Assembly (NCBI GenBank): GCA_028689065.1
Contig: JAQTWX010000001.1
Coordinates: 124,001-188,000 of the forward strand
DNA from: Candidatus Altimarinota bacterium
Lineage (GTDB): Bacteria > Patescibacteriota > Gracilibacteria > BD1-5 > UBA2023
DNA length: 64,000 nucleotides
Direction of reading: 5' to 3'
Under the pieces are notes generated by a model. That model saw only the letters and a program-made list of their open reading frames with translations, made no database searches and was not told the origin of the DNA. This document shows positions 24,901 through 48,047 of the stretch, in pieces; the stretch's first letter is position 1; the number at the start of each line of letters is the position of its first letter. Made by a program: the position numbers and the translations under genes.

Positions 24901-24910
24901 AATTTATAAA

Positions 24911-24955
24911 TGGAGCCAACGATGGGACACGAACCCACGACCTCATCCTTACCAA
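24911..24955 (-). pseudogene. 3' half of tRNA-Thr(GGU), separated by integration
   Basis: On the minus strand this is the anticodon loop TTGGTAA, the 3' anticodon stem GGATG, variable loop, T-arm and acceptor end with encoded CCA. From the variable loop to the CCA end it is identical to the intact tRNA-Thr at 47837-47912. Joined to the 31-nt 5' part at 48039-48009 it restores a 76-nt tRNA with a perfect CATCC/GGATG anticodon stem. Alone it cannot make a tRNA. Confidence 0.9.
24945..24955. repeat. attL core (11-bp direct repeat)
   Basis: ATCCTTACCAA, identical to 47998-48008. It covers the anticodon loop and half of the anticodon stem of the split tRNA-Thr gene. Confidence 0.8.
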
Positions 24956-26307: not shown

Positions 26308-27657
26308 CTATGTAGAGGGTACATCAGGTGATACTAATTTATTTTCCACTCCAATAAGTTCTACTTCCTCCTCCAAATGTTTCCCATCCAGCTGCTTCTC
26401 CGTCTTTGCTCCTAAAACCTTTAATCGCTCTATGGTCGAGGTAATACTACCTTTCCCGGTTTTCAGCTTTCCCATTGCTTGATCATGAGTCTCCAAGGAT
26501 TTTTCAAGATACTTTTTAATTCCTTCCATATCACCAAGAAATCCGATGAACTTCTCATAAAGCTGTCCTCATATTCTTGCTATTTCCAAAACATTTCTCG
26601 TCTGCTTTTCATGGCGCCACAGGGTTGCAACTGTTTTTAGTGACATAAGAAGTGTTGTTGGTGATACAAGAACAATCTTTCGATCCAATGCGTAGGTGAA
26701 CAGTGATCAATCGGTAGTTAGAGCGAGTGTAAGGGATGCTTCAATCGGAACAAACATCATGGTAAAATCGGGGCTACGTAAATCCGCATTGGACGGATAA
26801 TCCTTTTTTGCAAGTTCATCGATATGGTTCTTTATGGATACAAGATGTCCTGAAAGATGTATTTTCTTCTCATCCTCCTCCGAATTCACGAACCGTTCGT
26901 AGTGTGTAAGGGATACCTTCGAATCAACAACTATCGTTTTTCATTCTGGAAGTATGATGAGAACATCTGGTTTTACTGGTGTTCATGTATCACTTTTAAG
27001 TCCAAGTCCTTCTCATTGTAAAACATATTCGGAGCCCTTACGAAGCCCTGATCTTTCGAGGAGATCTTCAAGCACGAGTTCACCCCAGTTTCACTGTGTC
27101 TTTGAATCACCACGCAATGCTTTTGTAAGATTTTTAGCATCATTAGCGAGATCTTGATTCATATGTGTGAGTTGCTTGATTTGTTCAATCAAACTAGCAT
27201 TTGTTTGTATTCAGCTTTCTCGATTCTCCTTTACCTCCTTCTGGAAAGTTTCAAGTTTTTCTTTCAAAGGCTTCAATAAAAGATCCACCTGCTCTCTGTT
27301 ATCCTTAGTAAGACTAACCCGGTTGGATTCCATAATCTTATTTGCGATATTTTCGAATTCTGTCTTGAACTCTTTCTTTGTATCTTCCATTTCTTGTTTT
27401 CTTTTTTCAACTTTTTCAAGGAGATTTTTGTTTTCATTATCCAGTCCGGCTAATTTTCCAGTCAGTTCCACTATCGTCTTTTCGGAAGCATCTCTTTTTA
27501 ATTCAAGATCTTTGATTGTAGATTCCTTTTCGGAAATAGTTTTTTCAAGAGAAATTTTTTCAGCCTCAAAGAATGATTTTTTACTATTCGCAGTCATTGC
27601 GAAATATACTGCTCCGACTAATAGGATTACAAGAAGAATGACTATGGATTCGAGCAT
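26308..27657 (-). CDS. rmuC: RmuC family protein
   Basis: A 449-residue DNA recombination protein thought to limit inversions and act near nuclease-like folds. N-terminal TM (residues 4-21), long coiled coil (25-150), then the RmuC core: GNWGELVLEDLLERSGL, KPDVLIILPEGKTIVVDSKVSL and DFTMMFVPIEASLTLAL. Five UGA codons are read as Gly. It ends with TAG. Divergent from the xre-hsd operon. RmuC on a mobile element is less usual than on the chromosome. Confidence 0.9.
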
Positions 27658-27844
27658 AAAAATGTGATTATGAATATTTTTTAGATAAAAGTTACTACTA
27701 AAAGACAGTCGAGTCTTATACGAAACATTATTAAAAATTTATTAAAATTTCGAAAGAAATTTCAGAATATTTTTTCCCTAAAAATTGATTTCGTTTTTGA
27801 TTATATTCAAATATAATCCTACCGGTAATCATTTTTCAAAAAAC

Positions 27845-28093
27845 ATGCCAGCAAATAAATCGCTTTCCGAAAATTGGATCGGAGAACGCATTAGGGAATT
27901 ACGAAGAATTAAGGGGATTTCACAGGAAGCTCTTGCCATTAAAGCGGGTATTCCAATGGTTTCTTTGGCCAAGGTAGAACAGGGGAAGATCCAAAAACCA
28001 GCATTTCAGATGGTTTGGAAGATTGTCGTAGCATTGGAGATAACCTTGGATGAATTCGTAGAAGGACAGGAATCAGAAAATATTTCTAAATAA
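27845..28093 (+). CDS. Xre-family transcriptional regulator
   Basis: An 82-residue helix-turn-helix protein (IRELRRIKGISQEALAIKAG, then VSLAKVEQGKIQ). It starts 9 nt before hsdR with no promoter between them, so it is likely a controller of the restriction operon, in the manner of C proteins. No UGA codons. It ends with TAA. Confidence 0.88.
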   Translation: MPANKSLSENWIGERIRELRRIKGISQEALAIKAGIPMVSLAKVEQGKIQKPAFQMVWKIVVALEITLDEFVEGQESENISK

Positions 28094-28102
28094 AGCAAAA
28101 TT

Positions 28103-30439
28103 ATGGCAAAAGGACAGTTTTCAGAAACCGATGTATGCTCTAAGTTCATAACACCAGCACTCCATACTGCCTCTTGGTCGGAAACTCAAATCCGTCGCGA
28201 GGTTTCTTTTACAAAAGGGAGAATCAAAGTAAAAGGTAAGACAGTATCTCGTGGCGAAACCAAACGAGCTGATTATATACTATATTACAAAAGTCACCTC
28301 CCCATCGCTATTGTGGAAGCCAAGGATGATTCTCATTCGATTGGTGACGGTATGCAACAAGCACTTGGCTATGCCGAAACTCTTGATATTCCGTTTGTGT
28401 ATTCTTCAAATGGTGACGGATTTTTGGAGCATGATCGTACGAAAACCTCCGGCGCCATTGAACGCGAAATCCGAATGGAAGAATTTCCTTCGCCAGAAGA
28501 GCTCTATAAGCGGTATCGAATAGCAAAAGGCTTGGATGAGGAAATAGAAAAAACTATAATGGAACCCTATTATGAAGATGGTGGCGGCAAAGGACCTCGT
28601 TATTATCAGCAAATAGCCATTAACCGTACTATTGAAGCCGTGGCCAAAGGGCAAGATAGGATTCTGCTTGTTATGGCAACGGGTACGGGGAAAACTTACA
28701 CTGCTTTTCAGATTATCTGGCGTCTTTGGAAAGCGAGAAAAAAGAAACGTATTCTTTTTCTTGCCGATCGAAATATTCTTGTTGACCAGACGATTACAAA
28801 TGATTTCAAGCCGTTCGGTGATAAGATGACAAAAATAGAGAACCGTAAAGTCGATACAGCTTATGAGATTTATCTCGCTCTTTATCAAGGATTGACCGGC
28901 GGCGAGGAAGATAAAAACGTATTCAGGCAATTTTCCCCGAACTTTTTCGATCTCATAGTAATCGACGAGTGTCACCGGGGAAGTGCGAGAGAAAATAGTG
29001 AGTGGCGAGCGATATTGGATTATTTTAAGGGCGCAACTCAAATCGGACTGACCGCAACTCCGAAGGAGACTGAGGATGTATCTACACATACATACTTTGG
29101 TGATCCGATTTATACCTATTCCCTCAAACAGGGTATCGAGGATTGATTCCTTGCACCTTACAAGGTTATTCGTGTCGGGATGGATGTAGATGAATGATGG
29201 AGGCCTTTTAAGGGGCAACTTGACTATAATGGTACTGAAATTCCGGACAAGGTATATGAGCTTGGTGATTTTGATCGTAATATTGTCATTCGGGAACGTA
29301 CTGAGGCTGTTGCTAAGAAGATTAGTGATTATCTAAAATCGACTGATCGTTACTCGAAAACTATCGTATTTTGTGTAGATATCGATCATGCGGAGCGTAT
29401 GCGTCAGGCGCTTGTGAACGAGAATGCTGATGAGGTTGCAAAAAATCCAAAATACGTGATGCGTATCACTGGTGATAACGAAGAAGGGAAAATGGAGCTT
29501 GATAACTTCATCGATCCAAAAGAGCGTTATCCAGTAATTGCCACAACTTCCAAACTCCTCACAACCGGAGTGGATGCTCAAACTTGTCGTGTTATTGCAC
29601 TTGACTCTGTCATCAATTCGATGACAGAATTCAAGCAGATTATAGGGCGAGGTACTCGTATCAATGAGGCTTTTGGGAAATATTACTTCACTATTCTTGA
29701 TTTTCGAAAAGCGACCAACAAGTTTGCGGATCCGGATTTTGATGGGGAGCCAGTTGTTATCTATAAGCCTGGACCAAATGATCCAATTGACGGAGGCGAT
29801 GTTGGGTGAGTCTGAAAAGATGAGTGAACCGGAGAAGGTGGAACAGTTATTACCTGAGGTTGAGAAGGTTGAGGTAACGGACAAAAGAAGATTGTTGTGC
29901 GCGGAGTTCCAGTAAGTGTTTCCCAAGAACGAATTCAATATATCGGACCAGATGGAAAGCTTATTACTGAAAGCTTGAAGGATTATTCTAAGAAAAATAT
30001 CCTCTCGTCATATGCGAGTCTTGATGATTTTTTGAACGAATGGAACCACGTTGATCGCAAACTTGCGGTAGTGTCTGCTCTTGAAGAAAAAGGCGTGTTC
30101 TTTGAGGATCTTCAAAAAGAAGTCGGTCAAGATTATGATCCCTTTGATATGATCTGTCATCTGGCATATGATCGTCCGCCAATGACTCGAAAACAGCGTG
30201 CAGAAAAAGCTAAAAAAGGTGACTATTTTGAGCAATACGGAGAGCAAGCTCGTGAAATTCTCAACATGCTTCTGGAAAAGTATGCCGATGAAGGTATCGA
30301 TGCAATTGAAGATATGAATGTATTAAAAATTAGTCCCCTTTCTCGCTTAGGTAGTCCGATTGAGATTGTCTCGATTTTCGGATGAAAAGAGAAATATCAA
30401 GCCGCAGTTCGAGCACTTGAAACGGCACTCTATCAATAA
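28103..30439 (+). CDS. hsdR: type I restriction enzyme, R subunit
   Basis: DNA translocase and endonuclease subunit, 778 residues. Nuclease motif at residues 52-74 ([10 protein letters not shown]...IAIVEAKD). SF2 helicase motifs: Walker A ATGTGKT at about 193, motif II DECH at about 292 and TATPKE at about 323. The second RecA domain has the TTGVDAQTC and IGRGTR motifs. A glycine-rich linker (about 570-596) contains six UGA codons. Further UGA at 29144-29146 and 30383-30385. It ends with TAA 18 nt before hsdM. Confidence 0.95.
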
Positions 30440-30457: not shown

Positions 30458-31885
30458 ATGTCGAATATATCAGCTATTGTAAAATCTATTCAGGATATAA
30501 TGCGAAAAGATGCCGGAGTAGACGGTGATGCTCAGCGTATTGGGCAAGTTTCCTGGATGCTCTTTTTGAAAATCCTTGATGATCAGGAGAAAAATCTGGA
30601 AATTCTCCGGGACGGCTACGTTTCGCCAATGCCGAAAGAGTGTAAATGGCGGAATTGGGCAGCCGATAACGAAGGAATGACGGGTGATGAACTTGTTGAA
30701 TTCGTAAACGAAAATCTCTTCAAACGCCTTCGTAGTCTTCCATTCGACCGCGAGAACCCGATGACTGGAATTATTCGCGGGGTTTTTGAGGACTCGTTCA
30801 ATTATATGAAGTCCGGAGTGCTTCTACGACAGGTAACGAATAAGATCAATGAGATTGACTTCACTAAGAAGGCGGAACTTCATCTTTTTAATGAGATTTA
30901 CGAAAAAATCCTGAATGACCTCCAATCTGCCGGTAATGCCGGTGAATACTACACTCCGCGTGCGCTTACCCAGTTTGTCGTGGATATGGTAGCGCCGAAG
31001 CTTGGAGAAAGTGTTCTCGATCCCTCTTGTGGAACCGGATGATTCCTGACGTGTACTATCGAACACATTCGTTCAAATTACGTAAAATCTCCGCATGATG
31101 AGCTGATTCTTCAAGATTCGATTCGTGGAATCGAGCTGAAACAACTCCCTCATTTGCTTGCGACCACCAATCTTATCCTTCACGGGATCGAGTGTCCTAC
31201 TAGACTTCGGCACGACGATTCTCTTTCTCGTCCGATAAAGGATTATGGTCCGGAAGATTCCGTAGATACCGTGGTTACCAATCCTCCGTTTGGAGGGCAG
31301 GTTAAACCTGGGATTGTACATAATTTTCCGAGTCAGTTCCAAACAGCAGAAACGTCATTTCTTTTTCTCGTACTCATCATGACCGTCTTGAAGTCGGGAG
31401 GACGAGCAGGAGTGGTACTTCCGGACGGATTCCTTTTCGGAGAAGGGGTTGCTACACGCATCAAAGAAAAGCTCCTTACTGATTGCAATCTTCATACTAT
31501 CGTTCGATTGCCAAACGGAGTATTTAGTCCTTATACAGGGATTACAACCAATCTTCTTTTCTTTACCAAGGGTGAACCAACGAAGGAGGTTTGGTACTTT
31601 GAACATCCGCTTCCACCTGGGATCAAGAATTACAGCCGATCGAATCCTCTTAAAATCGATGAATTCAATGAGGAGAAAGCTTGGTGGAATAATAGAAAAG
31701 AAACGGAAAATGCTTGGCGCGTCGGAATCGATGAAATCAAGGCACGGAATTTCAATCTCGATATCAAGAATCCGAATCGGAAAGACACCAAGGAAATTCT
31801 CGACACCAATGAGCTCATAAGTGCGATAGAAGCAAACTTCAAGGAAGCGACTGAGATTTTAGAAAAGATTAAATCCAACATTTAA
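30458..31885 (+). CDS. hsdM: type I restriction enzyme, methyltransferase subunit
   Basis: A 475-residue N6-adenine methyltransferase. HsdM N-terminal helical domain (residues 1-150), SAM motif I DPSCGTGGFL (UGA codes for the second Gly of the GG pair, 31040-31042) and catalytic motif TNPPFGG. It starts 18 nt after hsdR and is followed 4 nt later by the MazF-like gene. It ends with TAA. Confidence 0.96.
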
Positions 31886-31889: not shown

Positions 31890-32333
31890 ATGGAAGAAAA
31901 ACAATTCGATACTTGGAATGATGAAAAGAAAGCCATCGAGCTTGTTGATACGGAGAAAATCGTCTGCAAACGACGACAGTTCTGGCTTTGTAAAATCGGA
32001 GAAAATATCGGATCCGAGATATCGAAAAACGACCCATTTGTCAGACCGGTACTCATACTCAATGAGCGCCTTCGATGAGGCTTGGTAGTAGCCGTTCCGC
32101 TTACAACGAAATTCAAAGAGCACTCCAAGTGGGCATACTATCCCATCATAGATGGTGCGAAGTTTGGTCTCAATGCGGAATCGTACTGTATTCTCGATCA
32201 GATGAAAATCATCAGCAGAAAACGACTTATACGGAAACTCAATGACATGGAGTGACCGGATGGAGAAGAAATTCCTTTATTTGACAAGGAACAATTCATG
32301 AAAGTCGTGAAAGGAGTGCATGGATTTATATAA
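31890..32333 (+). CDS. PemK/MazF-like toxin-family protein
   Basis: A 147-residue protein with the MazF fold signature: an N-terminal basic QFWLCKIG strand where MazF has GDIVWVDLG, followed by RPVLILNE, VVAVPLTTK and the late ILDQMKIISRKRLIRKL. MazF proteins are sequence-specific endoribonucleases. Two UGA codons are read as Gly. It is embedded between hsdM (4 nt upstream) and hsdS (133 nt downstream), with no recognisable antitoxin gene. The extra 20-residue N-terminus might substitute. It could also be a non-toxic nucleic-acid-binding relative. Confidence 0.8.
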
Positions 32334-32465
32334 CAAAATCGATCCGGAGTTTTAGCTCCGGATCTCAGGTGATCGCGTCTAATCGACCGATCGAATGTAC
32401 AGGTATTATATCCGGATCCGGATAAAAAGCAAACAAAAAGTATAGTCGTAACCATTTTGGGCATC

Positions 32466-33782
32466 ATGGGTTGGAAAACTGTAAAAATAGGAAAGTTCCT
32501 TATCGAACGAAAAGAGAAATACTCTCCGGAACAAGCGAATTCTCTGAATATGCCTCGGCTTGAAAAGATAGATTTTTCTGGACGGTTTCATATTGCTGAA
32601 TCCAAGAAGACCTGAACTGGCATGATTTGTATCAAGCCCTCAGATCTTGTTATCTCATGAATCAATGTTGAGAAGGGTGCTCTTGGTATTTATGAAGGAG
32701 AATCAGATATTCTTGCCACAATTCACTATTCATCGTATGAGTACGATAAAAATCAAATCGATATAGACTATCTTCGTTGGTTTGCAAGGAGTTCTGAATT
32801 CAAGAGAATTCTCCGAGAACAAGTCGGTGGAGGAATTAAGACTGAAATCAAGCCAAAGAAATTTCTATCCCTTGAAATATCGTTGCCGGATATAGAAGAA
32901 CAGCGAAGTATTGTTCAGTCGATATTATCCGTTCAGGAGGATATAAACAAGGTTAATAGTCTGAATAATAAAAATACTGGATTTGTAGCAAATCTACGTT
33001 CTTCCATTCTCCAAGATGCAATACAAGGTAAACTTGTACCACAAGATTCATCTGATGAACCTGCAAATGTACTCTTGGATCGGATACAGAAAGAAAAGGA
33101 GGAGCTTGTGAAATCTGGGAAAATCAAGAAACAAAAGGAATTGTCTCCGATTAAGTCAGAGGAGATCCCTTTTGAATTGCCGAAGGGGTGGGAGTGGGTA
33201 AGACTCGGAGAATTGTTGTTATTGTCTGAATATTGATCGGCAGAAAAAGCGAATACTGATGAGTCAGGGGTGCCTATGTTTAGGATGGGGAATGTACAAA
33301 AATGAAGCCTTACCTACGACGACTTCAAGTATCTAAACAGAAAGGCAAAAGACCTACCGAAGCTGTACCTAAAAAAGAATGATCTCCTTTTTAATAGGAC
33401 GAACAGTTGGGAACTAGTTGGGAAAACGGGTATTTTTTTATGAGATGACGATTCATATACTTTCGCAGGCTACTTAATCCGTCTGAGATCATCTTTTCTC
33501 ATATCTCCCATTTTCATAAATTACTATTTGAATTCAGATTTTTTTAGAAAAACACAAATCGAGCCACAAATCATTCAACAATGTGGGCAAGCAAATTTTA
33601 GTGGTGGGAAATTGGTTGAAACTCTATGTCCACTCCCACCAGCATCGGAACAACTTCATATCGTAGAAAAAGTGAGCGAACTTTTCACTTACTGTGATGT
33701 ATTGGAATCATCTACAAAAGATGCTTCTGAGGCAAGTGAAAAGTTATTGGAAAGCGTATTGGCAAAAGTCTTTAACCCGTAA
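32466..33782 (+). CDS. hsdS: type I restriction enzyme, specificity subunit
   Basis: A 438-residue DNA-recognition subunit with two target-recognition halves. Each half ends in a conserved helical spacer (LPDIEEQRSIVQSILSVQE at 139-157; LPPASEQLHIVEKVSELF at about 393-410). The phrase LPKGWEWVRLGE begins the second half. Five UGA codons are read as Gly. Its ATG lies 133 nt after the MazF-like gene; the gap contains a small hairpin on CCGGAG. It ends TAA, 3 nt before the next ATG. Confidence 0.92.
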
Positions 33783-33785: not shown

Positions 33786-35969
33786 ATGATTACAAAAATC
33801 ACCCTCAAACGGGTTGCGAGCTACGGGGAAACACCCGCAATATTATCCACAGATAAACGGATCAATCTTGTATATTGACTGAATGGAACCGGTAAAACCA
33901 CTATTTCAAAGTATCTAAGGAATACAGGTGACGCCGAATTTTCCGAATGTTCTTTGGAATGACTTTCTGATGAGAAAGTATTGGTTTATAACGAAGATTT
34001 CGTTTCCGATAATTTCTACACGAAAGATGAATTGAAGGGAATTTTTACGTTGTCGAAGGAAAACAGGGAGGCAAGTGAGAAGATCGAAAACGCCAAAAAA
34101 GAAATTGCGAGACTGGATAAGGAACTGGAAGATGCTGAAAAGGGTTGCGGACTAAAAGTGGATCTGAATACAAAGAAGGAGCAGATAGACGAGCTCGAAA
34201 AATGAACACACGACGCGATTTGGAAAATCAAGGAAGAATATTCCTGAGGCGATCGTGTGCTCGAATTCTGTCTGACCGGAAAAAAGGGCAGTAAAAGTTC
34301 GCTATTTGAACACCTCAGGAGCATACAAAAACCAGTTACAACCCCATCAAAATCGACCGATATTCTCAAAAAAGAGGCAGAATCTATCAAGGAAGATGCC
34401 GAGTTGCTCGATGAGGATATTTCTGGAATCGATGATGTTTTTTCCCATATAGAGGCAAATTTATTGTTCCAGGATGCTATCGTTTGAAATTCCGATTCAC
34501 AGATTGCCGAGCTGATTCAGCGCCTCGGCAATGCTGACTGGGTTAGGAAGGGGCTCGAATACCTGCCTAAATCTCCCGAAGGACTATCAGATAACGTGTG
34601 TCCTTTCTGTCAAAGTGAAACGATTACTGACGATCTTCGTGATGAGATACGTGCATACTTTGATGAAACCTATGCACAAAACATAGATTCATTGAAGGGC
34701 TTGCAAATTTCATATGAAAAGTGATACCAACTCGTCGTCGATGCCTTTTCGGCGTATCTGTTGCATCCGATGGTCAAAGAACAGGAAAGTGAGTTCAAAT
34801 TAAAACACGGAGCTTTATTAAAAGTTCTCGATGAAAATCGAGGAAAGATTACCGCGAAGATATCCAACCCGAGTCAAAAAGTAACTCTTCTTGATTCAGC
34901 CTCATTTATATCGGATTTTAATGCATTCCTAAAAACCATTACGAATCATACCAAGGTTTTCAATGAAAAGATACGCGATCGTGAGAAAACCAAAAAAAGT
35001 ATTGAGCGGGAATTCTGGGAAATTATGAGATGGGGGTACGATCGGGATATGGAAGATTATGAGGATAAATCGAAACGATATCTTGCAGATCTTAAATCAA
35101 TCGAGACAAAGATTGCGGAAACTAGGGGGTTTATAGAAGCCCAGAAGGACGTTATCAAGGAGGCTCAGAAAGAAATCGTTAATATCGATGAGGCGATCGG
35201 GAGGATAAATTCCCAATTACTCCTCATGTGAATCGAAGGGTTCTCCATAGCCAAAGCGACCAATAACTCGTACAAACTGAGTAGAAAATGATTCGAGAGT
35301 GCGAAATTCAAGTCTTTGAGTGAGGGTGAGAAGACAGTTATAAGCTTCCTCTATTTCCTCTACCTGTGCGAATGACGCGAATCGGAAAGCGAGGTCTCTA
35401 TGAAGAAGATAGCTGTCATAGATGACCCAATTTCCAGCTTGTCCCATATTTACGTTTTCAATATTGCCCAACTGATACGGGATCGTTTTTTTGACGGAAG
35501 CTACGAGCAAGTATTTGTCCTGACTCATAATCTGTATTTTTTTCATGAGCTTTTGCACAAAAAGAAAGATTCAGAGGCAAAGCTATTTAGACTACATAAA
35601 GCCGACGTTACGACGATTTTTGAAATGGACCGTCAGGAAATACAGAATGAATATCAATCGTATTGGCAGATTATAAAAGACTACAAAGCAAGTCGGGCCT
35701 CCGAGGTACTGTTGGCAAATGCCATGAGAAACATTTTGGAACGCTTTTTTGGGTTCATCAATAAACACAATTTCAATGAACTCACCGCAGAATTGTGAAA
35801 AGATGAGTGATACAGGTTTTTCATACGTTATATGAACAAGGAATCCCATTTTGACGCTATAAATATTTCCGACTCGAAAGAAATAGACTGAACTATTTTC
35901 TTAAATGCTTTTGAAAAAGTCTTTACTGATGCGGATTTCAAAGATCACTACGATACCATGATGGGATAA
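33786..35969 (+). CDS. RloC/PrrC-like anticodon nuclease
   Basis: A 727-residue ABC-type ATPase with a C-terminal nuclease. Walker A GLNGTGKTT at 31-39 (first Gly UGA), long coiled coil interrupted by a zinc-hook CPFC at about 274, LSEGEK signature, Walker B AVIDDPISS and FVLTHN H-loop. Near the C-terminus Arg648, Glu652 and His688 match the R-x3-E...H catalytic triad of PrrC/RloC. RloC cleaves and excises the wobble base of tRNA on phage attack. Placement right after hsdS, 3 nt apart, is typical. At least nine UGA codons are read as Gly. It ends TAA. Confidence 0.9.
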
Positions 35970-36004: not shown

Positions 36005-36973
36005 CTATCCACCGGTTGGTTTCGTGATTTTATCCACGAGCTCAAATAATTCCTTCTCGAAATCCAACGGATCCACCATCAATGTCTTATCTTTCAAATT
36101 CTGTTTGTTCCCAGGGATAAACTTGTCTTTTAAGATATCTATTCCCTTGACGAGAGCCCTGTATTGATTGGAGCTCATCACTCCAACTCCGTATTCCGGA
36201 AGGTAGTTAACTGGATTATATATGAAATCAGCATACTTGACGTACTCCTTTATTGCATCGAAGCACCGCTTTTTTCATACAGCTCGTATGCGTTTCGAAA
36301 ATGAGTTGAATACGACCTGAAATTTTTGGTAACCCATCGATTGGAGAGTCTTTTCGTCGAAAAGTTTCCGGTACATCTGAGCCTTCTTCTCCAATTGTGC
36401 CATTGTCTCGGTTCATAAGTCAGTCTCTACGAAAGTTATCAAATCTCATTTCACAAGGGTACAATCAGGACGCAACGTCTCTATTGGATCATAAATAGAT
36501 TGTGGATGTAAGTCAATGTTGAGTTCACCGTCAAAAAGTATATCGGCCGGCGTGATTTTTAATCATCGCATCACATAGATAGCGAAATTGATATTAGTAT
36601 AACTATGAAGGATAGAGTGCTCTCCTGGGGATTCTCAGTAGAGTACGGTTGCTCCACCAGATAGTCTTCGCATATTTGGGAGATCCTGCTTGTATCATAC
36701 ACCCTTCATATCCAATGATGGATCCATTCCGGATCGAATTCCTTCGACAACATAGACTCCGGTCCGTATTCCGTACGCTGGTGCCTCTCACCAGAGTCTT
36801 TTATACTGGGAAACGGTTATTGGTCATGTGCGTTCTATCCTTTGTCGCATCGTAATATTCTCATCACTCACCACTGGATTGTCTGGTAGATGCCGGAGGA
36901 TGAATCGTGATTGTTTCGTGGGTGAATATGATTTCGGTGGAGTACTTCTCGGGTAATTGAAACTGTCGCTCAT
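36005..36973 (-). CDS. replication-relaxation-like protein
   Basis: A 322-residue protein. Residues 40-110 look like a winged-helix start (ENITMRQRIERTGPITVSQY, VYVVEGIR). Residues 150-205 carry the pattern LRPDCTLVKGDLITFVETDLGTETMAQLEKKAQMY, which is typical of the replication-relaxation family found on plasmids and conjugative elements. About eight UGA codons are read as Gly. It ends with TAG. Convergent with rloC (36 bp apart). It suggests plasmid ancestry of the element. Confidence 0.65.
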
Positions 36974-37083
36974 GGTAGTAAAATAAGGAGTAATGGGCTC
37001 ATCTTCGATTATAAGGAATTAACGCTTTCTCACGAAAATCGGGGGTATTTGGATCCCGATTTTCCAAAGGTGTCCAAATCTAT

Positions 37084-37962
37084 CTAAAAACGATTCCTTA
37101 AAATCCGGATGGATATTCCCGCCATCGTTCAGGGCTTTGTTTTGAATCAGTCCGGTAAAAATCCGTCATTTTCGAAACCATATCTTCTGGATGATGCAAT
37201 AAGTAAATGTATCTGATATCGTAAGGATATATGAATCGGGAATAGGTTTTCTTTTTGATCCGATTTTTCGAAACCGATTCAGAATCCCCATCATTTTTCG
37301 AAGATATCGTTCGATGATTGCGGGCATCAAAATACCTTAGATTTTTCCATAGTTAGGGAAACGGAACTATTATTTCTCAATAAGGCGCTCCTATCGATTC
37401 GTTCGTTAATTGCTTTTGATCCTTCTATTTTTTTGAAAAACCCTCCGAAATCGTGACACGGTAGAAATACGGACTTTTCTTTCGCGTAAGAGACAAGTCC
37501 GTCTCCGAGAGATGTATACATTTGTGCTGGGACGTGAATTCTCATTCGAAAACGTCCCCCTTCGATTTTGTAATGTCCAAGGATTTTCCGAGGAGACATA
37601 TGTGCCCGACCGTCGATCTCAAAGCTGTAAACCACTCGCTCCTTCTCGTAACGAATTTGAATAGGATTTTGTAATTCCATTCTTTTTCTGGTCCGACTAA
37701 GGCGTTGGCCCCTCAATCCATTCCTGAAAACTTTGAACCTTTTTGCAATAGATCTTCAATGTTTCGAAACCGCACCGATTTTTTCGATCCGGTTCTTTTT
37801 GGTTCGTGCGTAGAATTCGTTATTTTTCTCTAACTTTACCAAAATCCGTTCTTTTTCTCTGTTCCCGATTCGCAAAACCGCCGGACGCGAGAATGAATGA
37901 GAATTTCTCGCACGGACGATTTCCACTCTCGTTACAAATGCGATTATTCCCTTATAATCCAA
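37084..37962 (-). CDS. hypothetical basic protein
   Basis: An open frame of about 292 codons with UGA=Gly, very rich in Arg and Lys (for example RKRMELQNPIQIRYEKERV). The upstream limit is a TAG at 37971-37969, and the only early start is TTG at 37962, without a ribosome-binding site; ATG at 37680 is a possible shorter start. It ends with TAG. The last third (after a UGA at 37329-37327) has several UGA codons and may be less reliable. No family recognised. Confidence 0.45.
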
Positions 37963-37992
37963 TCGAGTCTATTTAATTATTTTCTGATAAAA

Positions 37993-38994
37993 ATGAGTGA
38001 GAAAAAAATCATAACCAACATAGGTGATGTCCATTTCGGTCCGGAAGGTATGGATCCGACGTGTCCGTACATGCGCGAAAAGATACAGGTCGAAATCCAT
38101 CCTTTTTCATGAAAAGGCCTCGAAACGACGGTCCGGATGTTTTTCAAAACTCCGATTCCGGAAACCGCTTATGAGATGCAGATTTTCGCAAAAAGCCTGG
38201 GACGACCGCTCGAATACGAAGAGCTGTATCTTTTTTCGAAGATCGCACCAGGATTCGATGGGAGCGACTTTGACATTACAGCCTTCTCCCAAGGATGATT
38301 TCGAAGGTTTAGGCTCAATCCGGTCGTCGACTGATTGTGGGAATATGCATCACTTGTATGAATAGATAGGAACGTTGAGAAGGCCGTTTCTGATGCATAT
38401 CGAAGTTGATGTCCGTTCGAAGCTCCCGAGACGAGTATTTCAATGTACCAACTCATTACGAACATTGTTTCTTATCGGAACAAACATGCCAAGTGAGCGA
38501 AAATGAAATCAGAAACGGAATTCGTGAAATTTGTAGCCGATATGATACGACTAGAAGCCTTTGCTCCATTGACTATTTATGTGACGGACTGGAAATACTG
38601 AGAGCTGCACTTTTCCGTATCAGAGATTATGGAAAAAGTCCGAGTGTTCCAGCCCGTACGGATTCCCGACGAAATCCCCAAGATATTTCCCATCATGGAT
38701 TCAAGCTTCACCATGCTCCAAGTGTTGCGTCTTTTGCAACAAGACAAATATGATTGAATCGCATATATTTCGAACGATCAGTCATCCCAGAAATTCGCGG
38801 GAACATTGAAAGATTATTCTAGAACGAGCGGGCTCATTTTCAAACATATCAGACTTCCCGAAGAAATGCTCGATCTTGATCTAAATAAAAAGATGATCTA
38901 CTTCATTGCTGAGAAAATCGCACCAAAACTAACCAAGGTTTGCTGTTTCCCAAATTCCTGTGTTTTTCCAATCACGGTGCGGGACGATGATTAG
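37993..38994 (+). CDS. hypothetical protein, 333 aa
   Basis: A soluble protein beginning SEKKIITNIGDVHFGPEGMD. Ten or more UGA codons are read as Gly, so the gene is invisible under the standard code. A TATAAT -10 box at 37953-37958 lies 35 nt upstream of the ATG. There are no membrane segments or recognised motifs. It ends with TAG. The next gene has a similar promoter box, so each is probably transcribed on its own. Confidence 0.65.
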
Positions 38995-39069
38995 CAGATG
39001 GGACTAAAATCGTCCAAAAAGTTGTTTTTTCCTTATAATGGAATAGTCTTATTACTTATGTACTTTATT

Positions 39070-39876
39070 ATGGCAAATTTTACAAAGAGAGAAGTTGAGC
39101 GATTTATCAAAAGCCTACCAATTGAAGAAAGGATTGATCTTGTACTTCCCGATTCAAGCAAGGGGTTATTTCCGTTTATAGATGCCTTGGGAAGTGTGGC
39201 AAGTTGAAAATATGGAGCTGAAAATTTGGACTTCTTACGGGCTATCCGTTCAATTTCCATATTTAACAATGAGCCTGCCCGCAAGGTTCTCAAATACTTC
39301 TCTCGACGCAAGACAGAAAGCTCAACCGAATCATTCATAGATCTCTGACATTTCGTTGGCTATCTTGCAGCGATCTTCCACACGATCGTGCTGGCCCTCA
39401 GTCGGAGTGGTGAAATCTCCGATACAATCCGCTGAGTATTAGTTGATCATATGGGGATGCTGATGGTATACCTCACGGCCGAAGAACGAGAGAGTATCAT
39501 GGGAGATATGTATCAAAGGAAACTGAAAAATGAGGCGAAAGCACGACGTACTGACAAACACAAGGTAAACACAACCAAATATGAGCATGAAATCGATGAA
39601 GAACCCTTGCCACAAGATCAAACTCAGGATGATCAGGAAGCACTTTGGGAGGCTGCTAATGACACAGTAATGAGTCAAGAGGAATTACAAAAGGAAGTGG
39701 CTGAAATAATGAAAGACCAAGAGCAAGAACTGTCTATCCAAGAAGAAGAGGTGATGAAATTGGTTCGAGAATACGATAGGGATTTCGAACCCACTGAGAA
39801 AGAGATGAATGAACTATCCGAATCCATTAAATCCGATACTTGAAATATATATGCAGTAGAAGATCAACCCTCTTAG
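39070..39876 (+). CDS. hypothetical acidic protein, 268 aa
   Basis: The basic N-terminus (MANFTKREVERFIKSLPIEER) passes into a helical region and a strongly acidic, Gln/Glu-rich coiled coil (residues 165-255). Four UGA codons are read as Gly. A TATAAT box at 39032-39037 precedes it; ATG at 39058 is an alternative start. It ends with TAG. The charge pattern suggests a partner-binding protein; function unknown. Confidence 0.65.
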
Positions 39877-40247
39877 GAATCCTCTTTTCCGTCCCCGATC
39901 AAAATAATCCTGGGAGGTTGTCACTAAGTGGCTCCTGGCGTAATCCTGGTCCGACTCTGAGTTACTTCATTCGAGCTCCGGCAGATACGAGTGTGGAGTA
40001 AAGATATGGTGATTACCATGAACGAATGTGGCGTAAATGGAATATTCTCGATGCGGAGCGATCCTTATTTCAAAAATTGAATAATTTAGTTCATCTTTCT
40101 AAACTGATTTTGAATTTCTGAATGCTGATTTTTTGCAAGATTCGGACATTCTGGTAAACTGATTTTAAGTATAGATTTTTGGATTCTATTTTGTCCAAAA
40201 AACGTAAAAGCTCCTTATCGGAGCGATATTATTAACGTGCTCAGAAT
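39877..40247. other. intergenic region with short direct repeats
   Basis: About 370 bp with no plausible gene. AAACTGATTTT occurs at 40101-40111 and 40156-40166, with a degenerate copy (TGCTGATTTTTT) between them. A hairpin GCTCC...GGAGC is at 40210-40224, just upstream of the AAA+ gene. The repeats could be regulator or replication-protein sites, but they are few. Confidence 0.4.
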
Positions 40248-41459
40248 ATGGAACCGAGAATGCTGCCATTATGGCGTCCAGAAATAGAAATGATCGAGAG
40301 GATGCGTGACTATCTTTTCCAGAACCTATTAGGACAGCAGGAGGCAATCAATGAAGTCTGCGATTTGTTCATTGCTCGATCGGTTAGATCCAATAGCGAT
40401 CGGAGACCTTTTATGACTGTGTTTTTGAACGGTACTTCTGGTGTTGGTAAGACCCTCATGTTTGAGCTCATTGGTAACTTTTTAGCCCAAGAGGAAGAGA
40501 GAAAGGGGTCATGATGTCATATACCAGTAACGAAGTTTTCCCTTAACTGAGTCTTTGCCTTCGAAGTTCCAGAAATGTTGTACAGCCTAAATCCGAGCGC
40601 TCGGAATCCGTGAGATTCGAAGAAATGTAAGTGTGAAGTTCTTTTTGAACAGGCTTGTGAATCTGATCCTTTTTTCGGAAGACAGGTCCAGATATGGGAT
40701 GAATGGGAGAAACTGAATTCTAGCCCCAATCATAACTATATTTCTGCCTTCAATGTAATTAGTGAAATATTCGAGGATGCAATACCGACTCCTAAGCATC
40801 CAGACGCTATTTCTATGGATTTTTCTAATACAATTTTCGTCATCACAAGCAACCTATTTCTAAACTCTGTCCGAGATCCAAAGCGATCGATTGGATTTGC
40901 GACACCAGAAGAAAGCAAACCAGTGATACAAGATGAATCTTTTGGTATAGACAAAGAAGAAATACTCGAAAAGTTGAGAAGACATTTTAGTGTCAGTTCG
41001 TTTAATCGGGTAGATAAATTTGTGCAGTTCCGAGATATTTCTGGATTCTGAGATATGCGACGAGACTTCGCTGAAAAGGAAGTTCGAAAAATGTTTGGTA
41101 TAATCGATGATTTCTATGAGAAAAGATGAAATCCACTACCAGCCATTGAACAATATAAGAGTTTTGATCAATTAGTTCAGGAAGCGCTCGATAATTGCGA
41201 GAAGAGCGGATGATTTCGTGCAATAAAAAGGTATATTGAGAACATTATGATTGGTCGGATATTATCCTTGTTGCATAGAGATTATCCAAATATAAAAAAA
41301 TCTGAAAGAATGAATAGAGAAAATGGCCATCGAACCATTGTACGACCAAGAACCACAGCGAGGGTTACGGATGATACTACTTCCGAAGCTGATTTAGAGC
41401 TCATGAGTATTTTTGAGCAAAGGGAAGCGATTACAGATATGTGTGCGGATAAGGATTAG
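40248..41459 (+). CDS. AAA+ ATPase, ClpB/torsin-like
   Basis: A 403-residue ATPase. It begins with a Clp-like LLGQQEAINEVCDLF, Walker A NGTSGVGKT (about residues 64-72) and a late sensor-2-like GGFRAIKRYIENIM. The Walker B/sensor-1 region is near FSNTIFVITSNL (ITSN). Seven UGA codons are read as Gly. No substrate-binding N domain. It may be a remodelling factor for element replication or defence; the role is not known. It ends with TAG ahead of a terminator. Confidence 0.72.
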
Positions 41460-41494
41460 GAGGGATTCGTTGCTTTTTCCGTTTCCGGTTTTCA

Positions 41495-41528
41495 AAAAAG
41501 ACTACTTCTTTTATGAAGTAGTCTTTTT
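41495..41528. terminator. bidirectional intrinsic terminator
   Basis: A 14-bp perfect stem (41495-41508 with 41515-41528), AAAAAGACTACTTC and its complement, between convergent genes. Confidence 0.85.
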
Positions 41529-41561
41529 ATTTGCAGGCTATTTTATTTCCTAACCAACATT

Positions 41562-42083
41562 TTATTTAACCCTATTACCCTGAGCATCGAAGGTCCCGAG
41601 AAGCCCATCGATCTCGTCGGCCGTGAGGATGGGTTTTTGTTCAGGAGTTGGACGGCGATATTGTTCCGTGAGTTCAAGGTGCTTTCTTGCAAATCCCTCG
41701 AAAAGGTAACGCTCCATTCCAGAAAAGAACCTATCCTGAACATCCTGGTTTTCGAAAACGCTTGCGAGCGGCGCTTCGGAATAGAGTGCCTGATACAATC
41801 TCTGGACATATTCTTGAAGAAAGGCGAAATCCGCATAGTCGGGATAGTCGTCGGATACCGTTTCTTTGTACATTTCCAAATGGCTCATGAGAAGCCGGTA
41901 ATCGGCACGACGCAGCTCGTCTCGATGAGCCAGTTCCTCAGAGCTGTGTCCGAAAACATCTTTTCCGTTCCCGATCACGAGGCTTTTGAAATAGGCGAAC
42001 TCGTGCGGGATCGAATGAATCTTCTTCGGAGTCTCTCTGGTTCCTTGGGTGATTGGTTCCGGTTTTTGTGATAATCCTGACAT
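41562..42083 (-). CDS. hypothetical protein, 173 aa
   Basis: Acidic helical protein whose C-terminus contains ILTADEIDGLLG (residues about 152-163). The gene upstream has a closely similar motif (VLTSDEINGLIG). It begins 4 nt after that gene's stop, so the two are translationally coupled. GC content is visibly higher than in the surroundings and there is no UGA. It ends with TAA. No family recognised. Confidence 0.65.
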   Translation of the reverse strand: MSGLSQKPEPITQGTRETPKKIHSIPHEFAYFKSLVIGNGKDVFGHSSEELAHRDELRRADYRLLMSHLEMYKETVSDDYPDYADFAFLQEYVQRLYQALYSEAPLASVFENQDVQDRFFSGMERYLFEGFARKHLELTEQYRRPTPEQKPILTADEIDGLLGTFDAQGNRVK

Positions 42084-42087
42084 ATGT

Positions 42088-43059
42088 TTAATGGTTAAGG
42101 AGTAAGTAATTCTTCATATCTTCAAGGGTTTTCAGGTTCGTCGTATCGACCTTATGGCTTTCGAGGAGTTCTTTCAATTCCGCAGCGTACTGGTGAAGTT
42201 CATTCGGGTCCTGCTTAACCTTGTGTCGCGTCTCGAAGTTTCGTATTTCGGAAAGGATGTCCTCCCGGACCTCGCCATACCTCGGCTTTCAACGGGCGAA
42301 CAGGCGGTTGAGGTTGGTATCCACGAGCTTGTCCATCGCCTCATACGTGCCTTTTGCTTCCCTTCATTCGATTTTGATGAGCTGGACTTCCTTCTTTACT
42401 TTGGCGAGCTCCGTGGCAACTTGAATCTTTCATGGCTCCTTACTCTTTACCAGTAGACGAATGATCGCTTTGAGTTTCGTTAGGTCTCATTTCTTAGCGA
42501 GTTCCAGGGCGGAATCGATCGCCAGGACTCACTTTTCTCAGAAGTTGCCGAGTTTCTTGACCCTCTCGATTTGAGGGAGCAGTTTTTCAACCGCAAGTCC
42601 CATTCGGGTGAGTCGTTCGGCCACAACCGCTTCTCCGGCAACCGGCAATGCCATGAGAGGAATCTCGTACCATTCCGGAACAAGCACGTCCTTAACGAGC
42701 TCCCAAGCGTCCCCAAGAACCTGTTTGAGCGCGGTTACTTGTTCGACTTCCTCCTGAGTCAGACCTCATTCGGAACCGATTTGGTCACTTAGACTTGCGA
42801 TGAGAGTATAGCGATTTTTCTCGTTATTCCCAATGAGACCATTGATTTCATCGGAAGTTAATACTCCGATGTACTCGCTCATATCCCCGAATTTTTCGGT
42901 GGTATCGGCAAATTCGAGAAGGTCTTTCGCAAATTCCCGTTTTTTCATTTCCCGAGAAGCTTGGAAAAGCTCTTTTTCTAAAAGCTCGGGCTTTTCTTTC
43001 GGTCGTGCAGCCTCCGGGTCCAACAGGGCGAGTCGCTCTCAACCTTCCATTCCCGCCAT
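42088..43059 (-). CDS. hypothetical protein, 323 aa
   Basis: A helical protein with GC-rich codons. Near residue 70 it carries VLTSDEINGLIG, shared with the next gene. A mildly hydrophobic stretch (EIPLMALPVAGEAVVAERL) lies at about 130-148, followed by charged helices to the end. At least six UGA codons are read as Gly. ATG at 43059 or 43050 could be the start. It ends with TAA, 4 nt before the partner gene. Function unknown. Confidence 0.65.
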
Positions 43060-43140
43060 ATGGGATAAATTAAGTTGTATTTTTGTTTTGTTATCTTGGT
43101 ATATTATATCAATTTTTTATGGAAAAAGCAATTTTAACGT

Positions 43141-43302
43141 ATGGCAAGGAATGGATTTTGAATATACATTGTAGGTGTCGGAGACGGAAAGAGAGTCAAT
43201 CTTTCTTCTGTTGTGAGTCAAAAAACATTAGTTGATGATTTTTACGAAGAGAGATATGGCTTTGGTGAATTTTTCCTAAATTGAAATCCTGTACCAAAAT
43301 AA
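43141..43302 (+). CDS. small protein, 53 aa
   Basis: MARNGFGIYIVGVGDGKRV at the N-terminus and GEFFLNGNPVPK at the C-terminus; two UGA codons are read as Gly. It is readable only with code 25. A TATATT-like box lies upstream and the divergent gene starts at 43059. The compact beta-like pattern has a distant feel of ubiquitin-like proteins, but this is an impression, not an assignment. Confidence 0.5.
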
Positions 43303-43352
43303 GCTTGATGTGAGATTTTTTTGCTTTCAGTCTATTTTTCTGTATATTGACC

Positions 43353-43516
43353 TTGCAACCTATACTATTTATTCCGCTATTTCCTGCGTGTTTTTTTTCG
43401 AACCCGCTTTCTTTTAATGGATAAACAAAACATAAAAAAGGGACTCATCAGTTCTATATGTCTTGTTTTCCATAGGAAAGCGGAAGTATAGGTTGCGACT
43501 GGTGAGCCCCTTTTTT
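43353..43516 (+). ncRNA. interleaved inverted repeats (pseudoknot-like RNA candidate)
   Basis: Arm A (43353-43366 plus 43374-43385) pairs with A' (43474-43483 plus 43485-43498): 14 bp including one G-T pair, plus 5+5 bp. Arm B (43434-43451) pairs with B' (43499-43516) over 18 positions with one A-C mismatch and one G-T pair, and ends in a T run. The order A-B-A'-B' means the stems interlock or exclude one another. It lies in the 304-bp gap upstream of the membrane protein at 43607. Confidence 0.55.
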
Positions 43517-43606
43517 GCGACCTGGACGATATGTGCCAGATATATCCGCAGTGTACCGAAAAAGAGGAGGTTTGCAAAAAGCTCCTTATTTTTTTATCTA
43601 TTTTTT

Positions 43607-44629
43607 ATGACAAAATCTGAATCAGAGAACAGTACTGATACTCCTAATCCAGTAGTTACAAAACCCGATACGGTTGGGATTTATACTGGATGGCTCGGTA
43701 TCCTTTTTGGATGCCTTGGAATAATCTTTTTAGGGATAGTATTTTTTCCATTAACAATCCTAATGGCTGGGATTTCACTCCTCAAAAGAAATTGGCTTCT
43801 TGGATCCATTTCTGCGATTCTTGCAGTCTTAGTTTTTGTTACTTCGCCTACACTATGGGGATTAGTGGCATTGAAAGGAATTTATGACAAAGGGGTGCAG
43901 GAACAGACACGTGTCAATCAGACTGCACAAAGAGTGATCAAGACCAAAAAGCAGGAGGATAAGGATGCTGTCATCAATCATAAGGAGATTTCCAATGAAC
44001 AGCAATATATGAGTATCCTAAAACCAGAAGATCGGAGCTATGCGGAATCAACTCAGTTGGCCATTTCGATGGCTCAAAAAGGTGGTACATATTTGAATTC
44101 TTGTACGGTACAGGATTTGAAAAGAATTGTGTTTAATCCCTGGGTTTCTGGGACTATTCCTGAGATTCAGAAACAATTAACAAAAGCGATAAGTACTGAT
44201 CGAAAAGAGATTTCCAAATTTCCAGCAGTTGGTAGTCTGCCGAATATCGAATCGATCAACGGAAAATACGAGTATACACGGAACGGCATTTTGCTGGTTT
44301 TGAAAAGCATCTACCTGGATATTACCGTTTCAAATAATAAAAACATACTTTCTGATACTCCTTCCGATACTGAAAGAGAAACTTTGGAGAAATCACTCTC
44401 TGGTATGGAGTCTGCAATTACATTGTTTTCTTCATGAAACACACTCTCTGAGCCCGTTCCTGTTGCGATGTATTGAAAGGATGACAAACTCGCAACGAAG
44501 ACTATTTCTATCAAATCCTTCCCAAATGGAAATTTTGGAATCTTGGTCAATAGTGATTCCCCGGCATCTACCGGAGGAACAAAGACTCCGAAGACCGTTA
44601 TGGAAGTAGCTAATCAGGAATCATATTAG
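43607..44629 (+). CDS. membrane protein, 340 aa
   Basis: Hydrophilic N-terminus, two TM segments (residues about 28-52 and 58-86) and a large soluble C-terminal domain with a charged coiled region. UGA is read as Gly after LFSS (44435-44437) and once more in MYGKDD. The ATG at 43607 is chosen because upstream frame sequence lies inside the inverted-repeat region. It ends with TAG. Unrecognised. Confidence 0.68.
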
Positions 44630-44663
44630 TAAAGTTCATTTTACCCATTAACTACTTATTCAC

Positions 44664-45221
44664 ATGTCAGAGCCAAGATATGAAACCCGTTCTTTCCAGA
44701 TCTATCATGGGCTTAGCCAGTATCAACAAGCATTGACCCTATTCGGATGGGAAGTAATAAATCAACAAAAAATCAACTACGACTCAATTACAACAACGAG
44801 CGGAAAAAGTCATGCTGGAATCTTTTTCAAAGATCGTGCGACCCATGATATGTCATCATCAACTAAGCATCTTTATTATACGGAGATTACCGCCAAAAGA
44901 CGTATATGATCTGTTCCAAAGGCAGTTCTCGATATCGAGGGTATATTTTTCGACCAACTTCATACATTCGTAACCCCTTGGATAGATATAATCGGGACTA
45001 TCAAACTAGCATTCTTTGTCTGAATCGGCTCATGGATACTACTTGCTTTCTTTGCGACAAGAATCTGAGATCCACTCCTGAATTTCGCAATTATACCACC
45101 TTTGATACTATTTATTTATGGTGCCGTAAAATTCTTAAAATCATATATCTATAAACATGAAACCTATCCAGAACTTTTGGAAGGTCATATGAAGATTATC
45201 CATGAAAATCCGATCGAGTAA
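44664..45221 (+). CDS. membrane protein, 185 aa
   Basis: The soluble N-terminal domain (1-100) begins SEPRYETRSFQIYHGLSQYQ; two TM segments are at about 106-128 and 135-153. Three UGA codons are read as Gly, two of them in or beside the TM helices. It follows the 340-aa membrane protein by 34 nt, so they probably share an operon. It ends with TAA. Function unknown. Confidence 0.65.
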
Positions 45222-45720: not shown

Positions 45721-45864
45721 TTTGTATATTTTTATAAAAAACTGCTCATTATACCAAGATTCTCCCAGAATGTAAAAGAAAATTTACTTTTACGTTTTCG
45801 CCTTTTTAATGGATACTGAGTGTATATCGTCGACGATCTTTATTCACTTTTTCAAATCACAACT

Positions 45865-46857
45865 ATGACCGTAGTTTCCATGAAACGAAAACAAGAAATC
45901 ATTTCTTCGCTTGAATGAACTGGCAAAAGACCACTGTTTCAGTATTGGGAAGAGTATAAAAGTGACTATATTCGAGCAAAAAGAAGTAAGGATACGATAG
46001 AAAACACTCGGCAAACATTGAGTCGTATTCTTATATATTCAGAACTCATATCCATCGAAGATTGGCTCGTTCCATGAAAAGCACAAGATGAATTTTTCAG
46101 ACTTACCGAAGAGCGCAAGTGGTCCGAGTCAACACATAACTCATATCGAAAAAATCTGAGCTCGTATTTTAGACACCTAGTTAAGCGTGGACATATCCAG
46201 AATAATCCTATAAAAGACGGGATTGTAAGAATGCCAGAGCTCGTACAGGATCAACCTGTCGCAAGCAATGAGCAAATTCATACAATATTAAATCTTTTAG
46301 AGAATACTAAGTTTGGTATAAATCTTTTACAACGACTACGAGATAGATTATTTTTTACACTTATGGCTTGAACGGGAGCACGTCCAAAAGAACTACTCAA
46401 TCTAAGACTGGGCTCATTTTCATGAAACAGAGACGAAGTGACTATTCAGACAGCAAAATCCTCCTGAAAGAAAAGAGTTTATCCATTGAATCAAAAGACC
46501 ATAGATCTTGTACGAGCATATATCCGTGAGGTTGTCATCTATGGGCGTGATATGGAACTAAACAAATCTTTCTTTCTTGGTAGAGAAAAAGGGGAAGCTT
46601 GGGGATACGATGGGATACGAAAATTTTTTACAAAAGTCACCAAAGAAACAGGTGCCCCAATCACCGCATATATGCTTCGAAGACATGCTGCAACTGAATT
46701 GTATGACAAAGGAGTGGATATTCATAAAATTCAACATCTCATGTGACATTCAAGTGCTACTACAACAAGCCGCTATATCCAAGCCAAGGCTTCTATGAAT
46801 AAAGAGACGGCAGATATTCTTTTTAGCATTACAGATTCAGTGGGTGTTTCTCAATAG
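45865..46857 (+). CDS. tyrosine recombinase 1
   Basis: A 330-residue site-specific recombinase. N-terminal SAM-like domain (residues 20-125). Catalytic domain with Arg in GTGARPKELL (its first Gly a UGA codon), HxxR as LRRHAATEL, and GHSSATTTSRYIQ with the nucleophilic Tyr. Seven UGA codons are read as Gly. ATG at 45880 is an alternative start. Its 3' end overlaps recombinase 2 tail-to-tail by 29 bp. Confidence 0.92.
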
Positions 46858-47719
46858 AACTCATCATTTGCTTTGCGGAGCATGCAAGATAGATCGTAGT
46901 GGTAGTTATCTTACTATGCCCCATCATCTTCGAAAGTGTATATATGTCACACCCACTTTCCAGCATGAGCGTAGCAAAAGAGTGTCGTAGCGAATGGGCT
47001 GTAAAGTAAATTTTTGTCTTCTTGCGGAGTCTTTCCACGATACGATCGACCGATTCCGTACCCATCGGTTTATCAAATTGTGATTGCAAAAAGAACTTCT
47101 CACATTGTCTATTGAGTCTTTTTCGTTCAATAATATATTCTTTAAGAATGGCTGCCAATTTTGAAGAAATCGGTAAGACACGATCCTTCTTTCCTTTTCA
47201 TTGGATAACATGAATAGTGAGATTCTGCATATTTACATCGTCACAGTAGAGATTGGCAATCTCGCTTTTTCTCATCCCTGTAAAAAGGAGGGTGTTCAAA
47301 ACAGTATAATTCCGTATTTGTTCAAATCTATACTTATAACGCATTCTCCTGCAAGTCTGTATCAATACCTCAGCCTGATCAAACGTAAGCCCCTTTGGAA
47401 TGGTACGTTCCAATCTTGGCAAATCAATTTCTTTCATAAAATTTCCCTCAACTTTCCCTCTCTTCGACAACCAGGTTAAAAACGTACCAAAACGCTTGTG
47501 GTAATCGATGTAGGTTGAAGCCTTCCAATTCCGCGTAAGTCGACCCTCGATAAGCCAATCTTCTATTCTATTCTTCGTCAAATCCCGCAGATCTTTCGCC
47601 TTCGTCATTTTAACGAATAATGTTATCGCGTTCCTCATCGATTTGACAGTCATAGGTGAATAATTCTGTACATGTTCCAACTGAACAAGGCACTGATTCA
47701 AATAATCTATAATTTCCAT
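46829..47719 (-). CDS. tyrosine recombinase 2 (XerD-like)
   Basis: A 296-residue recombinase. N-terminal core-binding domain (MEIIDYLNQCLVQLEHVQNY), then the catalytic domain: Arg in TGMRKSEIANL, Lys in GKGRKDRVLPIS (its first Gly a UGA codon), HSLRHSFATLML, and MMGHSKITTTTIYLA with the Tyr nucleophile. It ends TAA. It starts about 118 bp from the intact tRNA-Thr gene and is the closest recombinase to the attachment site. Confidence 0.93.
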
Positions 47720-47836
47720 AACAAAAAAGGATACTAAATAAAGTATCCAATGAAGTGGTTATATAGACCTTCCATACCATCCTCCTTGCAGGTACCTGCT
47801 ATGGGGGATTTCAAAATGATTGCGAATGAACATAAA

Positions 47837-47912
47837 TGGAGCCAACGATGGGACACGAACCCACGACCTCTCCCTTACCAAGGGAACGCTCTACCAACTG
47901 AGCTACGCCGGC
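47837..47912 (-). tRNA. tRNA-Thr(GGU), element-borne
   Basis: 76 nt including an encoded CCA end. Acceptor stem GCCGGCG/CGTTGGC with two G-U pairs, D-arm AGCTCAGTTGGTAGAGC, anticodon loop TTGGTAA (anticodon GGU) and T-loop GTTCGTGTC. It differs from the split host tRNA only in the anticodon stem (TTCCC/GGGAG in place of CATCC/GGATG), so both would read ACC/ACU. It lies 85 bp downstream of the stranded 5' half and could be transcribed from that gene's promoter. Confidence 0.95.
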
Positions 47913-48039: not shown

Positions 48040-48047
48040 CTATAAAC

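Follow-up and report, generated by a model that had tools for sequence, protein, structure and literature searches.

Does the open reading frame at 33786..35969 (+ strand) of the 64,000-nucleotide stretch of Candidatus Altimarinota DNA analyzed here, hereafter the window, encode an anticodon nuclease of the RloC type, and if so, what would activate it and which tRNA would it cut in a host with a reassigned stop codon? An earlier, sequence-only reading of this DNA had proposed an RloC/PrrC-like nuclease in a mobile element written in genetic code 25, and this proposal is borne out by the family models, the conservation of the motifs, the profile alignment with PrrC, linkage to restriction-modification (R-M) genes and the att sites of the element. 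We place at roughly 0.85 the probability that the gene product is an RloC-type anticodon nuclease, in which a Rad50-like ABC ATPase and a CPFC-bearing coiled coil are predicted to precede a HEPN ribonuclease domain at the C terminus.

The gene and its motifs

The open reading frame, the coordinates of which are exact, starts with ATG, ends with TAA, and comprises 727 codons under translation table 25, with 12 in-frame TGA; it stays open only when TGA stands for glycine. The Pfam model AAA_13 (PF13166) spans residues 11-713 of the product (E=2.9e-116), the top PADLOC model is PDC-S06 (788 bits, full-length match), and the PrrC model of PADLOC aligns to residues 507-719 (E=5e-15). Motif scan and alignment placed the Walker A motif GLNGTGKT at residues 31-38 (33876..33899, +), the ABC signature LSEGE at residues 511-515 (35316..35330, +), and the Walker B/D-loop IDDPISS at residues 545-551 (35418..35438, +). 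The zinc hook CPFC, residues 272-275 (34599..34610, +), sits in a loop flanked by predicted coiled-coil helices, and no relative with coverage of this part deviates from it. The predicted HEPN RNase core, R648/E652/R681/H688, falls within residues 647-688 (35724..35849, +), as judged by an alignment of 23 sequences and by HHalign comparison with the R/E/(R)/H residues of PrrC.

Walker A, CPFC, the ABC signature and R648/E652/H688 had all been correctly located in the sequence-only reading, which missed R681. Together with H688, which is directly preceded by S687, this arginine makes up Rx6H, the HEPN RNase motif of PrrC and RloC (HEPN assignment, PMC3710099). The description of the spacing as PrrC-like was loose: R-X3-E is indeed present, but the distance from E to H is X35 here, as opposed to X31 in PrrC and X36-52 in published RloC (PMC2610378).

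Conservation of the predicted catalytic residues

When the RloC-like protein sequence was shuffled, R-X3-E-X31-52-H was found in 66% of the shuffles and R-X3-E-X35-H in 5.6%, while a CPxC hook was found in 0.05%. Since the triad pattern is so common in shuffled sequences, its mere occurrence is weak evidence; invariance of the putative triad across 23 aligned sequences, however, is strong evidence for it. In this alignment, the members of which come from named genomes and viral contigs and are 28-67% identical to the window protein, all four of R648, E652, R681 and H688 are invariant. The residues of Walker A, the signature, Walker B and the hook did not vary among the 13 long sequences of a first alignment and were at least 90% conserved in the alignment of 23, which includes fragments without hook coverage. 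In relatives with an E-to-H spacing of X36-39, the triad occupies the same alignment columns as in the window protein. A Streptococcus phage Javan105 protein, named 'translation-disabling ACNase RloC' by annotation only, is 25% identical (E=1e-50). In an uncultured Helicobacter (L043), a frameshift breaks the RloC-like gene near residue 120-140.

Homology to PrrC and structure models

Strong PrrC matches were obtained in ten Gammaproteobacteria genomes, and none at E<=1e-15 in 287 Patescibacteria genomes. HHalign comparison of the RloC-like family with a profile of nine PrrC sequences gave a probability of 98% (E=8.8e-13), the alignment running continuously through the triad and over the whole C-terminal part of PrrC. 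It paired MRNILE with LRNLYE, and RYMNKESH with RVMNFYPH, such that R-X6-H lies on R-X6-H; in one of the PrrC sequences (L166) the triad begins at R314 and its E-to-H distance is X31, as published. Restricting the comparison with PrrC to the C-terminal domain gave E=3.3e-4 and a probability of 17%. Since the support drops in this way, the claim of a nuclease domain rests on the continuous alignment in conjunction with the conserved residues.

The AF2 model of the full-length protein (mean pLDDT 82, pTM 0.45) shows the hook loop between long helices, and is all-helical after residue 617, with a low-confidence loop at residues 685-698 around H688 (pLDDT <50 in the His loop). By Foldseek, the head of the full model matches Rad50 and SMC heads. 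When residues 585-727 were modeled separately (pLDDT 77), the PDB yielded nothing significant for them, the best E being 0.28. A sequence search of the PDB with the RloC-like protein returned only Rad50/SMC/AriA heads, and no RloC or PrrC structure.

TGA codons read as glycine

TGA is read as glycine in the RloC-like gene. Codons 31, 59, 154, 234, 482 and 530, all TGA, correspond to Gly in each of the five relatives of 51-54% identity (L036-L040), which use the standard code; codon 31 specifies the first Gly of Walker A. At the remaining six TGA codons the relatives mostly carry another residue. A tRNA-Gly(UCA) is present in the host genome (RF00005 search). TGA accounts for 22% (87/392) of the Gly codons in genes of the element, compared to 8% (55/686) in flanking chromosomal genes, and differences in expression level may account for part of this gap.

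A 45%-identical RloC-like gene with 21 TGA codons was found on CAMKSF010000032.1 (L041), from a MAG labelled Clostridia. Its TGA codons also fall on Gly positions of Walker A and the ABC signature, and the contig has a normal set of open reading frames only under code 25; misbinning from Absconditabacteria/Gracilibacteria is the probable explanation. A tree places the window protein in one group with its close relatives and L041 (99/97 support), in which L041 and the window protein, both of code 25, do not pair up. Since the 12 TGA codons of the window gene, one of them in Walker A, are unreadable in standard-code bacteria, the element is confined to code-25 hosts.

The restriction-modification operon

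The RloC-like gene is the last in a compact operon that is headed by the gene of a small HTH protein, a likely controller (27785..28093, +; PF01381, weak PADLOC control-protein match). This is followed by hsdR, encoding a restriction subunit of the EcoAI/FtnUII family, i.e., type IB-like (28103..30439, +; NF046051, 1191 bits against a cut-off of 550), and by hsdM, encoding an N6-adenine methyltransferase (30458..31885, +; PF02384, 4e-69). A gene for a MazF/PemK-like endoribonuclease (31890..32333, +; PF02452, 1.8e-9) separates hsdM from hsdS, the specificity subunit gene (32457..33782, +; PF01420, PADLOC Specificity_I), which has a TTG start or, alternatively, an ATG at 32466, and the stop of which lies 3 nt upstream of the RloC-like start. 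No antitoxin is visible for the MazF/PemK-like gene. Within ~1.5 kb on each side, no HsdM/HsdS was found near other PemK loci of relatives in the phylum, and no PemK near the relatives' other HsdM loci. In one standard-code genome of the same phylum (G053, locus L150), hsdR and hsdM are 60-64% identical to those of the window, with no PemK or RloC-like match nearby.

Linkage to R-M genes recurs among the relatives. The RloC-like gene is located directly behind an HsdM-HsdS fusion in L036, between hsdS and hsdR in L038, and behind hsdR and hsdM in L039, and it overlaps the end of the hsdS gene in L151. In L037, it lies behind an EcoRI-type methylase and a GmrSD/HNH nuclease, while in L040 no R-M gene was present among the neighbors examined. 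Considering that only 8 of 72 published RloCs reside in type I or III loci (PMC2610378), the clade of the window protein, with most relatives in R-M loci, appears unusually R-M-bound, albeit in a small sample.

The integrative element

The operon is carried by an integrative element of 22.9 kb, at either end of which stands a 50-nt direct repeat that corresponds to the 3' end of tRNA-Thr(GGU). The left att copy (24906..24955, 50 nt) is 96% identical to the right copy, with 39 nt exact; the right copy (47832..47881) overlaps the 3' part of the tRNA-Thr(GGU) gene (47837..47912, -), the integration site. A tyrosine integrase gene adjoins the tRNA (46829..47719, -; PF00589, 2.8e-38; phrog_1), and a second one lies at 45820..46857 (+; PF00589, 1.1e-25). 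The order of a radical SAM gene followed by tRNA-Thr is kept in most genomes of the family that were examined. In a genome of the same genus (G454), the radical SAM gene and tRNA-Thr are followed by a beta-propeller gene, whose counterpart in the window is found past the far att; this arrangement represents the empty site. The RloC-like gene was found in none of six other genomes of the genus that were searched, and was matched in 8 of 353 genomes of the class (the host's own included), in most of them weakly. Its sporadic distribution and the borders of the element thus identify it as part of a sporadic mobile element.

Next to the radical SAM gene, where relatives keep an intact tRNA, a partial second copy of tRNA-Thr is found at 47990-48042 (5' half, 91% over 43 nt), which suggests an earlier integration that replaced the 3' end of the tRNA. 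The element also contains an rmuC gene (26308-27657), which follows the left att and precedes the R-M operon. Several of its genes within 36005-45221 have no Pfam or PHROGs match; the gene at 36005-36973 resembles Replic_Relax, below cut-off, and that at 40248-41459 resembles a Clp-like AAA ATPase.

Proposed activity, trigger and target

RloC has been characterized from Geobacillus kaustophilus and Acinetobacter baylyi (Davidov and Kaufmann 2008; Klaiman et al. 2013). In this enzyme, silence is imposed on the nuclease by the ATPase and the zinc hook and lifted by DNA ends, whereupon the wobble nucleotide of the tRNA is excised (PMC2610378, PMC3874168); Acinetobacter baylyi RloC (AbaRloC) is activated by DNA breaks in R-M-deficient mutants (PMC3874168). 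By analogy with RloC and PrrC, two copies of the window protein would pair via the zinc hook, with the HEPN domain kept silent. The trigger may be DNA ends, arising from restriction of incoming DNA or from phage breakage, and/or lost contact with an inhibited Hsd complex, and activation would be ATP-dependent. Metal-independent cleavage of the anticodon loop by R648/E652/R681/H688 would follow and bring translation to a stop, such that the infected cell would cease phage production. The sequence-only reading had stated that RloC-type enzymes disable tRNAs when phage inhibits restriction; this is in fact the PrrC model, the published RloC trigger being DNA breaks (PMC3874168), although the operon linkage is reason to consider R-M control for the window protein. 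Regarding the target, Geobacillus kaustophilus RloC (GkaRloC) favored tRNA-Glu on overexpression, and the substrates of AbaRloC are tRNA-Glu and tRNA-Gln, U34 and U35 being the proposed cues (PMC2610378, PMC3874168). The likeliest target of the window protein would be a U35 tRNA, namely tRNA-Glu(UUC) first, then that of Gln or Lys, and not tRNA-Gly(UCA). The RF00005 matches in the host assembly did not include tRNA-Lys(UUU), tRNA-Gln(UUG), tRNA-Asn or tRNA-Trp, but with 24 contigs and 96% completeness their absence carries no weight for the choice of target.

Alternative explanations

The operon invites a serious alternative, in which the protein is a PrrC-like device under strict R-M control, silenced by the Hsd complex and released by a phage anti-restriction factor, with no sensing of DNA ends. 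The location of the gene directly 3' of hsdS agrees with such control, as does the placement of four relatives (L036, L038, L039, L151) inside or directly behind hsd genes, compared to the 8/72 of the published survey (PMC2610378). Nonetheless, the zinc hook and coiled coil, which are the internal switch of RloC, are absent from PrrC; the EcoRI-type methylase and GmrSD/HNH nuclease beside the L037 gene indicate that an Hsd complex is not a constant partner; and AbaRloC responds to DNA breaks in R-M mutants (PMC3874168). Strict R-M control is thus possible, but on balance doubtful. A ribonuclease of the same family could also cut RNA other than anticodon loops, such as mRNA or rRNA, since HEPN domains have varied RNA targets (PMC3710099) and the residues of substrate recognition are unreadable from sequence. 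However, RloC and PrrC, the two proteins of this architecture that have been characterized, are both anticodon nucleases, and the profile alignment spans the whole C-terminal part of PrrC, which makes this reading unlikely. A Rad50/SMC-like ATPase of DNA repair or element maintenance that has no nuclease activity would fit the Foldseek result, in which the full model falls with the heads of Rad50 and SMC. We consider such an ATPase very improbable, as Rad50/SbcC have no equivalent C-terminal region (PMC2610378) and the four core residues are invariant where most alignment columns vary. The sequence-only reading had named clustering with Smc/Rad50 ATPases devoid of a nuclease as the outcome that would count against it; what was found in the sequence is a conserved C-terminal domain that bears the triad.

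The same reading had also offered tRNA-Gly(UCA), on which the recoded genes depend, as a possible target. This tRNA is indeed present in the host genome, and UGA is abundant in the genes of the element (22% of their Gly codons, compared to 8% in the flanking chromosomal genes). However, known RloC targets have U34 and U35, whereas tRNA-Gly(UCA) has C35; the 12 UGA codons of the gene itself need that tRNA; and nothing in the sequence points to it. Moreover, clear alternative coding is lacking in 34 of 38 putative Gracilibacteria phages >20 kb (PMC10746230); most predicted phages of this group barely use UGA and would hardly be hurt. This last argument is weaker for Absconditabacteria phages, which are mostly code 25. 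The proposal has no support, and we regard this target as barely credible. Also highly unlikely is a composite view of an R-M-embedded, code-25-adapted branch of RloC, in which the zinc-hook ATPase would report the state of Hsd, the MazF-like RNase would form a third layer, and the target would be a recoding-specific tRNA, possibly tRNA-Gly(UCA).

An RloC-type anticodon nuclease, the favored reading, would add a bacterium that has reassigned a stop codon to the known hosts of RloC. Since the close clade mostly resides in R-M operons, the question whether the R-M enzyme controls RloC becomes directly testable with one operon, and the code-locked element offers a view of the upkeep of defence islands under a different code.

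Comparison with known systems

The ATPase head, coiled coil and zinc hook are common to the window protein and Rad50/SbcC, which, however, have no C-terminal HEPN domain; no partner of the Mre11/SbcD type was found among the neighboring genes scanned around the RloC-like gene. The PADLOC family PDC-S06, which the protein matches in full length, is only the label of a candidate defence family, and probably denotes the RloC family itself by a different name. The neighborhoods described as three-layered, with R-M, an RloC-like ABC-HEPN protein and a Doc toxin (PMC3710099), have the same R-M/HEPN/toxin layout, in which a MazF/PemK-like protein here replaces Doc. PrrC, encoded with EcoprrI, shares the location of an anticodon-nuclease gene within an hsd locus, and its triad and Rx6H align with those of the window protein. 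PrrC, however, is 341-416 amino acids long with no hook or coiled coil, and EcoprrI is of type IC, whereas the R-M enzyme of the window is EcoAI-like (type IB). The zinc hook, the coiled coil and the 727-residue size thus make the window protein RloC-like and not PrrC-like.

The likeness to RloC of Geobacillus kaustophilus and Acinetobacter baylyi, judged from published features rather than by direct alignment to GkaRloC or AbaRloC, comprises a coiled coil with a CxxC hook that splits the ABC ATPase, and a C-terminal R-X3-E-Xn-(S)H. The residues to set against these in G. kaustophilus RloC are R692/E696/H737 and C291. The window protein is inside the length range of RloC (658-897 amino acids), and its X35 is one under the published X36-52. 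Unlike the characterized RloCs, its gene is located inside a type I R-M operon together with a MazF-like gene, and is written in code 25. Overall, RloC is an already-known defence family; what is unusual here is the recoded host, the R-M-embedded clade and the code-locked element, and not the mechanism.
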